Origin: Planctomycetia bacterium | Lineage (GTDB): Bacteria > Planctomycetota > Phycisphaerae > Phycisphaerales > SM1A02 | DNA length: 59,994 nucleotides | Direction: 5' to 3' | Assembly: GCA_005790565.1 (NCBI GenBank) | Contig: SXUJ01000159.1 | Location: 1-59,994, forward strand | Part shown: positions 33,909 through 36,339 of the stretch, piece after piece | Position numbering within the stretch: position 1 is the stretch's first letter | Layout of the letters: each line of letters opens with the position of its first letter | The notes under the pieces: generated by a model | Seen by the model: only the letters and a program-made list of their open reading frames with translations | Databases searched by the model: none | What the model was told of the DNA's origin: nothing | Translations under genes and position numbers: made by a program

Positions 33909-35025
33909 TCAACTCTTCAGATCGCGCTCGGTGCGCCGCCGTTTCAGTTCGGCGTCGATGAATCCCCAGAGTGCGCCGTTGAGCACGGACATCGGATTCC
34001 CGACCTCATGGCCGGTGCGATGGTCTTTCACGCGATTGTCGTAGAAGACATAGCTGCGGATCTGGTTGCCCCAATCTCGCGTCACTTTGCCCCCCGTGGC
34101 GGCGCTGATCTCTGCGGTGCGGCGTTCTTCCTCGAGTTGTTCGAGTTTTGCCCGTAGCACAGTGAACGCTTGCTTGCGATTCTGCGGTTGTTCGCGATAG
34201 GTACTCGCGACCACTTGGATTCCCGTGGGAATGTGCGTGAGGCGAATCGCGCTGGCGACCTTGTTCACATTCTGGCCGCCCGGACCACTCGCGCGCACGA
34301 AGGGAGTGATTTCCACATCCTTCTCGGGAATCTCAAGATCCGTCTCCTCAAACTCGGGAGTCACATCGACGGTTGCGAAACTGGTTTGGCGTTTGCCTTC
34401 CGCGTTGAACGGCGAAACGCGCGCGAGTCGGTGCGTTCCGCGTTCGCAACTGAGGTAGCCATACGCAAAGAGGCCGGTGATGCGATAGCCAACCTCGGAA
34501 ACGCCCGCCTCGGCTCCGGCATTGCGGTGTAACTCTTCTACCTTCCAGCCCATCTCTTCAAAGAAGTAGAGGTACATGCGCTCAAGCATGCCGGCCCAAT
34601 CTTCGGCTTCGGTTCCGCCTGCACCCGCCTGAATGGTGAAGAAGCAATTGCGGTGGTCATGTTTGGCGCCGAGAAGCGATTGCTGTTCGACCTTGTCCAT
34701 CTGCGCAAGCAGTTTGAAAAGCGACTCGTCCACCTCCTTGAGGAGCGCCTTGTCGTTCCCCTCCTTGGCGAGTTCGTAGCCCACTTGTGCGTCTTCGAAC
34801 TCGCGCATCACGGCTTCGAGTGGCTCGATCTGTGCGCGCACAACCTTCAATGCATCGATCGTTTTCTGCGCTTCTTTCTGGTTGCTCCAGAAGTCCTCTG
34901 CACTCAGACGATCATTGAGCAGTCGCCTCGTCTCGGCCTTGCCATCGAAGTTAAAGAGAGTCGCGAATCGTCAAAATCCGCGCCTCAAGATCCTGGAGAA
35001 TGGGTTGGTGAGCGTCGAAATGCAT
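33909..35025 (-). CDS. prfB: Peptide chain release factor 2, with +1 programmed frameshift
   Basis: RF2 ends translation at UAA/UGA. The main frame carries the SPF anticodon-mimic tripeptide ('ARVSPFNAEGKRQTSFA') and the catalytic GGQ ('VRASGPGGQNVNK'). The track start (TTG 34850) is internal. Upstream, ATG 35025 opens frame 0: 'MHFDAHQPILQDLEARILTIRDSL', 24 codons, then TAA at 34953-34951. The context is CTT-TAA-C; slipping +1 there gives 'NFDGKAETRRLLNDRLSAEDFWSNQKEAQ', which joins the main frame and matches the RF2 N-terminus. The full product would be about 371 residues, normal for RF2. No ATG/GTG/TTG lies in the main frame between the shift site and 34850. The usual stop is UGA with an upstream AGGGGG-like element; neither is seen here. 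Confidence 0.9.
34949..34957 (-). promoter_or_regulatory. RF2 +1 frameshift site (CTT TAA C)
   Basis: Read leftward the bases are TCTCTTTAAC: frame-0 codon CTT, stop TAA, then C. P-site slippage from CTT to TTT places AAC in the A site. The position (codon 25) matches the classic RF2 shift site (codon 26 in E. coli). UAA replaces the canonical UGA. Confidence 0.8.
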
Positions 35026-35100
35026 GGGTCGCGAATGCTAGCCGAAAGCAGCGCGCTTCAGTGCTGCGTCGAACTCGCGATTCCCGCTACCCTCCCTCCG

Positions 35101-36339
35101 ATGTCCGCAGTGAGTCCCATGCATATCTCCTCTCGAATCGCGTCGATGTCCGAGTCCGCAACGCTTGCCGTCGGCGCGAAAGTGGCTGCGTCACGCGCGA
35201 AGGGACGCGATGTCATTGCCTTCGCGATGGGAGAGCCGGATTTCGACACCCCTGCCAACATCAAGGCTGCTGCGATCGCTGCGCTCGAACGAGGGATGAC
35301 GAAGTACGCGCCTACCGCGGGCGAGAAGTCCGCGCGTGAAGCCATCGCGGAGAAGTTCTCGCGGGAAAACGGTATCGCGACGAAGTTTGATCAGGTCACC
35401 ATTACTGCCGGTGCCAAGCACGGCATTTACATGGCGCTTCAAGCGATCATTGAGCCAGGTCGAGGTGACGAAGTGTTGCTTCCCACTCCGGCGTGGGTTT
35501 CGTACAAGCCGCTCATTGAATTGGCAGGCGCGAAGTGCGTCGAGATTCCGGGCGCAGTGGGGAACGGATTCCGAATCACCCGTCCGCAGCTTCAGAGTGC
35601 CGTGAATGCGAAAACGGTCGGCATCGTGTGGAATTCGCCGTCGAACCCCTGCGGGATCGCGTATCCCGCGCCGGAAGTGCGCGAGATTTGCGAGGAACTT
35701 GCGCGGCATGAGCGCATCACGATTCTCAGCGACGAAATCTACGAGAAGCTCATCTACCCCGAGATTGCGCCCGGACTCACGCACTTTTCGCCGGGCTCGC
35801 TCCCTGCGCTCGCGCATCGCACGATCACGATCAACGGTCTGAGCAAGTCCTACGCGATGACTGGTTGGCGCGTTGGGTACCTCACTGCACCGAGCGCGAT
35901 GGCGAAGGAGCTCATCAAGCTCCAAGGGCAAATGACGAACTCCATCCCGAGTTTCTTCTATCCAGCGATTGTGGAAGCGCTCACCGCCAGCGCCGCGGGT
36001 GTTGAAGTGATGCGCGCCCGATTTGCGGTGCGAGCGAAACTCATCCATGAAGCACTTACGAGTGTCGCGGGTGTTCGAAGCGTCGCGCCGAACGCTGCGT
36101 TCTACGCCTTCCCCGATGTGAGTAGCCACTTCCACAAGACTTCGCCAAGTGGTGCGCGGATCACAAGCGCACAGTCGTTCGCCGACGCGCTGCTTGAGGA
36201 AGTGCATGTCGCGGTGGTGCCGGGCGAAGATTTCGGCGGATGCGCCCATGGCAACATTCGTCTGTCCTTCGCATGCAGTGAAGAGTCCATCACGAACGGT
36301 GTGGCACGCATCCGCGATTGGGTCGCGCAACTGCGCTGA
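35101..36339 (+). CDS. Aspartate aminotransferase (class I/II PLP enzyme)
   Basis: A 412-residue aminotransferase. It shows the substrate-side motif 'FAMGEPDFDTPANIK', 'KYAPTAGEKSAREAIAEKF', 'VWNSPSNPCGIAYP' (Asn that contacts PLP), 'ILSDEIYEKLIY' (Asp/Tyr) and the PLP-lysine motif 'NGLSKSYAMTGWRVGYL'. A late 'NIRLSFACSEESI' holds the Arg that binds the substrate carboxylate. This is the common bacterial aspartate/prephenate aminotransferase group (Igamma type). ATG 35101 was chosen (ATG 35119 is possible); the track start at 34882 overlaps the divergent prfB 5' end. The prfB and aminotransferase starts are about 75 bases apart, so their promoters share that gap. Confidence 0.9.
   Translation: MSAVSPMHISSRIASMSESATLAVGAKVAASRAKGRDVIAFAMGEPDFDTPANIKAAAIAALERGMTKYAPTAGEKSAREAIAEKFSRENGIATKFDQVTITAGAKHGIYMALQAIIEPGRGDEVLLPTPAWVSYKPLIELAGAKCVEIPGAVGNGFRITRPQLQSAVNAKTVGIVWNSPSNPCGIAYPAPEVREICEELARHERITILSDEIYEKLIYPEIAPGLTHFSPGSLPALAHRTITINGLSKSYAMTGWRVGYLTAPSAMAKELIKLQGQMTNSIPSFFYPAIVEALTASAAGVEVMRARFAVRAKLIHEALTSVAGVRSVAPNAAFYAFPDVSSHFHKTSPSGARITSAQSFADALLEEVHVAVVPGEDFGGCAHGNIRLSFACSEESITNGVARIRDWVAQLR

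Follow-up and report, generated by a model that had tools for sequence, protein, structure and literature searches.

A clade-wide variant of the prfB +1 frameshift in Phycisphaerales, with UAA or UGA at the shift site and a conserved upstream hairpin where the Shine-Dalgarno sequence is missing

The prfB locus

The stretch of DNA analysed here (59,994 nucleotides of contig SXUJ01000159.1, hereafter "the window") carries a prfB gene for release factor 2 (RF2) that is divided between two reading frames. For comparison we read 91 prfB genes, that of the window included, from the order to which it belongs (class Phycisphaerae, Planctomycetota). Among these, 82 are frameshifted; in the remaining nine genomes (L006, L011, L018, L033, L042, L048, L075, L085 and L088), which form three separate groups on the tree, prfB lies in one frame. 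The features of the locus are as follows.

33909..34952, minus strand: RF2 coding sequence in the +1 frame, stop TGA (TIGR00020 above cut-off; SPF and GGQ motifs)
34950..34956, minus strand: shift site CTT-TAA-C (CTTTRAC in 82 of 82 frameshifted genes of the order)
34951..35025, minus strand: frame-0 leader ORF, MHFDAHQPILQDLEARILTIRDSL followed by TAA (near-identical or identical peptide in three congeners)
34957..34961, minus strand: spacer ACUCU, 5 nt from stem to CUU (5 nt in 82 of 82 genes of the order)
34962..34968, minus strand: hairpin 3' arm AUUCGCG, seven pairs including one G.U (conservation, covariation)
34969..34975, minus strand: hairpin loop UUUGACG, 7 nt, variable
34976..34982, minus strand: hairpin 5' arm CGCGGAU (conservation, covariation, covariance-model match)
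34984..34986, minus strand: GAG, candidate stem extension with CUC 34960-34958 past a G.A mismatch (predicted fold)
35035..35040, minus strand: TAGCAT, a putative -10 box whose end is 9 nt from the ATG (recurrence of TANNNT in the order)

Frame 0 begins at ATG 35025 and comprises 24 sense codons, the last of which is CTT (34956-34954), followed by TAA (34953-34951) and C (34950). The +1 frame extends from AAC at 34952 to a TGA stop ending at 33909 and encodes an intact RF2 with the SPF and GGQ motifs, which scores 384.5 bits against TIGR00020 and is the sole prfB product of the genome above the cut-off of that model. A second copy of prfB was considered and rejected: the next match to TIGR00020 is RF1, which is encoded elsewhere in the genome and carries the PAT motif, and the remaining matches are partial. 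Upstream, the +1 frame is closed by TGA 34973-34971, within the hairpin loop, and its first ATG, GTG or TTG is TTG 34850, 34 codons past the shift site. The earlier note on this DNA had proposed a +1 frameshift at CTT-TAA-C after a 24-codon frame 0, with no usable start in the +1 frame before TTG 34850; the frames and the intact RF2 bear out both points.

The gene resembles E. coli-type prfB in its short frame 0 (about 25 codons), in the stop directly after CTT, in the C after the stop, and in carrying RF2 in a +1 frame that offers no usable start of its own. It differs from E. coli-type prfB in having UAA instead of UGA (the stop in 98.6% of known cases), in lacking the internal Shine-Dalgarno (SD) sequence 3 nt 5' of CTT, and in possessing a conserved hairpin 5 nt before CUU. 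Its membership among the prfB +1 programmed frameshifts stands despite UAA, which is an accepted minority form, while the absence of the internal SD leads us to file it as a variant.

An ORF for an aminotransferase on the plus strand (34882-36339, listed from TTG 34882) overlaps the prfB leader on the opposite strand. Its true start probably lies downstream of TTG 34882, because positions in the 35,1xx range already fit the aminotransferase N-terminus.

A conserved hairpin upstream of the shift site

In every frameshifted gene of the order that we read, the shift site and the sequence 5' of it conform to CGCGGAU-N7-AUYCGYG-ACUCU-CUUURAC or to a close variant. All seven pairs can form in 75 of the 82 genes and six of the seven in the other 7 (e.g. 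the congener L035, which has a C.U mismatch at pair 5), and the foot of the stem lies 5 nt from CUU in all 82. The window thus has a 7-bp stem closely upstream of the E-site codon, the arrangement of the engineered stimulators discussed below. The codon in that site would be the UCU of the spacer; in families f20 and f23 of the class (L217, L222, L229 and others) it is UGG or UGU instead. The loop carries a +1-frame TGA or TAA, six codons 5' of the site, in 68 of the 82 genes. A candidate extension of the stem to the E-site codon by GAG and CUC has three pairs, which are possible in 82, 80 and 70 of the 82 genes, show no covariation and are not kept in the class.

The hairpin is shared by the rest of the class, where 6 or 7 pairs can form in 58 of 68 genes and the stem is mostly CCCGGAU/AUCCGGG, and it is absent outside the class (2.1 pairs on average). 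Two genes from outside the class depart from this pattern, L346 with a CGCGGAU/CUCCGCG stem and L336 with a partial UCGCA/UGCGA stem, and because of them the hairpin may predate the class or may have arisen more than once. In the prfB genes of the order that lie in one frame, just 3-5 of the seven pairs are kept.

A covariance model of the hairpin and site, which includes the window sequence, matches 34947-34986 with an E-value of 8.5e-11. This is its single match in the genome, with no second copy of the cassette outside prfB. Rfam 15 gave no match over 34700-35200 at E-values up to 5. An ATTCGCG motif immediately 5' of the ATG was considered as another partner for the 5' arm and rejected: only 7 of 81 genes carry such a motif within 60 nt, three of them from the genus of the window.

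Selection on the stem

Two pairs of the stem join third codon positions, in Ala and Arg codons at pair 2 and in Arg and Ile codons at pair 5. Pair 2 occurs as C-G, G-C, G-U, A-U and U-A and is intact in 142 of 150 genes, against 76.6 in shuffles; pair 5 is intact in 141 of 150, against 118.5. An alignment of 38 sequences that differ in their stems gives a covariation score of 0.328, compared with 0.147 +/- 0.019 in shuffles and at most 0.113 in slid structures, and RNAalifold recovers the core of the stem unaided. When independent pairs of branches on the tree are counted, the changes at pair 5 go in the paired direction in a median of 6 out of 6 cases (p 0.03); those at pair 2 all go in the paired direction as well, the 3-4 informative events being too few for significance. 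At the level of sequence, the switch between the CGCG stem of the order and CCCGGAU/AUCCGGG is a silent compensatory double change.

These data have to be weighed against the possibility that the stretch is conserved for its leader peptide (EARILTIRDSL) or for the choice of codons and not as RNA, with the slippery stop alone driving the shift. The peptide is indeed conserved in the order as well, and the fold of the window taken singly is unremarkable, both against synonymous re-coding (p 0.08) and for the 86-nt leader (z -0.23), so that the case has to be made by comparison among genes. That comparison speaks against the peptide: third positions to which it is indifferent covary (GCC..CGG, GCG..CGC, GCA..CGT), and synonymous re-coding across the order shifts the mean hairpin energy from -10.25 to -3.95 kcal/mol. 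We regard a constraint on peptide or codons as an improbable explanation, and the covariation indicates that the hairpin structure itself is under selection. The stem sequence in the order is also more conserved than pairing alone requires, so that a sequence-specific role is possible.

The prfB start region and the loss of the Shine-Dalgarno sequence

In the 16 nt before CTT, the best pairing with the anti-SD of 16S rRNA amounts to +0.3 kcal/mol in the window versus -10.7 kcal/mol in E. coli under the same scoring. Averaged over the order it comes to about 0 kcal/mol, over the rest of the class to -3.9 and over genes outside the class to -5.4; the corresponding hairpin energies are about -10.2, -10.9 and -3.9 kcal/mol. 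Outside the class the typical sequence is CTNARGG-ACTCT-CTTTGAC, an SD, and the 3' arm of the hairpin covers the mRNA positions able to pair with 16S rRNA in other planctomycetes. A lost or altered anti-SD was rejected as the cause, since the 3' ends of 16S rRNA are normal in ten relatives from the order and keep CACCTCCTT; a search for 16S rRNA in the window's own assembly gave no match. Elsewhere in the class, most families retain GGGA, a weak SD, in the 3' arm. The hairpin may therefore have existed alongside an SD until the latter was removed by the silent change to the CGCG stem, the order of events being our reading of the present-day sequences. The statement in the earlier note that the site has no SD stimulator holds for the SD; a stimulator is probably present all the same, in the form of the upstream hairpin with its compensatory, largely synonymous changes.

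CTT follows the frame-0 ATG at a distance of 23 codons in 75 of the 82 genes of the order. In 52 of 81 genes a TANNNT motif has its end 4-10 nt 5' of the prfB ATG, compared with a mean of 4.0 and a maximum of 10 genes in shuffled sequences, and an SD tetramer precedes this ATG in just 18 of 81. With a putative -10 box so close to the ATG and so few SD tetramers, the prfB mRNA of the order may be leaderless.

A real hairpin might serve another purpose, as a binding site for a protein or RNA, in the control of initiation on an mRNA that may lack a leader, or in transcription attenuation. Such a role would accord with a sequence more invariant than pairing needs, and the near-constant position of the ATG means that the distance to the start is almost as uniform as that to the shift site. 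However, the stem decays where the frameshift has been lost, it sits where the sister classes have their SD, and its distance to CUU is fixed in the order, while 7 of 82 genes depart from the usual distance to the nearest ATG. We therefore hold a role unconnected with the frameshift to be unlikely.

Proposed mechanism

What these observations most probably describe is a +1 programmed frameshift in prfB with an mRNA hairpin as the stimulator instead of an internal SD; the stimulation itself is a proposal drawn from comparison of sequences. The ribosome would read frame 0 through the hairpin, which would refold behind it. The duplex would strain the mRNA and tRNA-Leu would slip from CUU to UUU, after which AAC (or GAC) would be read in the +1 frame. 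On the simplest reading, the refolded hairpin at the mRNA exit would substitute for the SD:anti-SD duplex. Slow reading of the stop by a release factor would favour the slip, so that RF2 would still limit its own synthesis, and where UAA occupies the A site RF1 would be expected to contribute to this braking. The earlier note supposed that a UAA site would be harder to regulate by RF2 alone.

This presupposes that full-length RF2 is made by shifting. A shorter RF2 initiated inside the +1 frame, with the full-length protein dispensable and the leader ORF vestigial, could draw on the +1-frame ATG found 15 codons after the site in many relatives and on the GTG found 4 codons before it in some; it is nevertheless most unlikely, as the first +1-frame start of the window comes 34 codons past the site, the +1 frame is closed by a stop inside the loop in 68 of the 82 genes, and conservation extends to the leader ATG, to CTT and the C after the stop, and to the hairpin.

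UAA and UGA at the shift site

The 82 frameshifted genes divide into 38 with TAA and 44 with TGA, and none has TAG. An alignment of prfB from relatives, proposed as a check in the earlier note, shows the identical CTTTAAC site in three other species of the genus (L035, L036 and L037), which confirms that UAA has replaced UGA and excludes a read or assembly error of one genome. That the TAA is an error for TGA, a doubt invited by a single metagenome-like assembly of 177 contigs, is contradicted by these congeners and by TAA in 38 of the 82 genes of the order from independent assemblies, and its probability is negligible. UAA is the trait of a clade and not a one-off. Its rarity, asserted in the same note, applies to bacteria at large, where UAA accounts for 1.4% of frameshifted genomes (PMC12421855), and not to this order. 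We conclude that the site is a genuine variant of the RF2 frameshift that extends across the clade.

An RF2 tree of the order requires at least 16 switches between TAA and TGA, and 3 changes between frameshifted and in-frame genes. UAG, which is read by RF1 only, was found in none of the 205 shift sites read; it is one step from UAA, yet never occurs there. The residue that follows Leu is unconstrained in the order's in-frame homologs, where it is A, D, H, N, R or S. Since UAG is lacking and the residue is free, the stop at the shift site apparently still has to be one that RF2 recognises, which lends indirect support to continued autoregulation. TGA makes up 60-65% of the stops in the order (71% of 35 ORFs in the window), and for this reason the demand for RF2 is probably high.

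All 41 UAA sites sit in genes with the CGCG-type stem, and UAA occurs in none of the 114 genes with another prefix. Outside the order UAA was found in two families (L215/L216 and L306), both with the CGCG-type stem. The independent events on the tree that would associate UAA with the stem lacking an SD are too few for significance. It is conceivable, at odds slightly short of even, that the hairpin arose at the place of the SD in the Phycisphaerae, that in the order of the window a silent double change then eliminated what was left of the SD-like GGG but preserved the stem, leaving the frameshift to an intramolecular duplex alone, and that the stop was thereby freed to exchange between UGA and UAA, turning a sensor of RF2 only into one of RF1 plus RF2 in about half of the species.

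Relation to known systems

The textbook example of a shift stimulated by an SD is the RF2 frameshift, which is reported to be almost invariant. A review describes the SD as a major and highly conserved feature of it (PMC5009743). A survey of 12,753 genomes found the SD hyper-conserved and the stop to be TGA in 98.6% and TAA in 1.4%, TAA not being broadly fixed in clades (Prince, Lin and Feaga 2025, PMC12421855); its main text makes no mention of planctomycetes or secondary structure. The sites described here share UAA as the A-site stop with the TAA-type sites of that survey, and differ from the surveyed sites in that UAA is common in one order and occurs without an SD.

The closest parallel is an engineered one. 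On E. coli ribosomes in vitro, a hairpin upstream of CUUUGA gave about 60% of the stimulation by an SD, only without RF2, and stimulated +1 shifting more weakly when destabilised (Huang, Cho and Chang 2018, PMC6321510). In both cases the hairpin lies just 5' of the E-site codon and is proposed to stand in for the SD:anti-SD duplex on the 70S ribosome; the engineered stem, however, is a designed GC-rich one of 12 bp, whereas that of prfB is a natural, evolving stem of 7 bp. Full-text literature searches, which covered open-licence papers and so are weak evidence of absence, returned no report of a natural prfB hairpin. If a natural clade has indeed exchanged the SD:rRNA duplex for a hairpin in the same position, this would indicate that the requirement is for a duplex at the mRNA exit and not for contact with 16S rRNA. 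The mixture of UAA and UGA within a clade offers, in addition, a natural test of the model of autoregulation by UGA only.

In these genomes prfB may be miscalled by annotation tools that rely on an SD or on UGA. Among named genomes, a pattern scan found at least 120 contigs with a match; among the matches listed, the titles are nearly all Planctomycetota, mostly Phycisphaerales, and the rest are uncultured bacteria and a metagenome-assembled genome titled Leptolyngbya sp. PLA1, which is probably misnamed.
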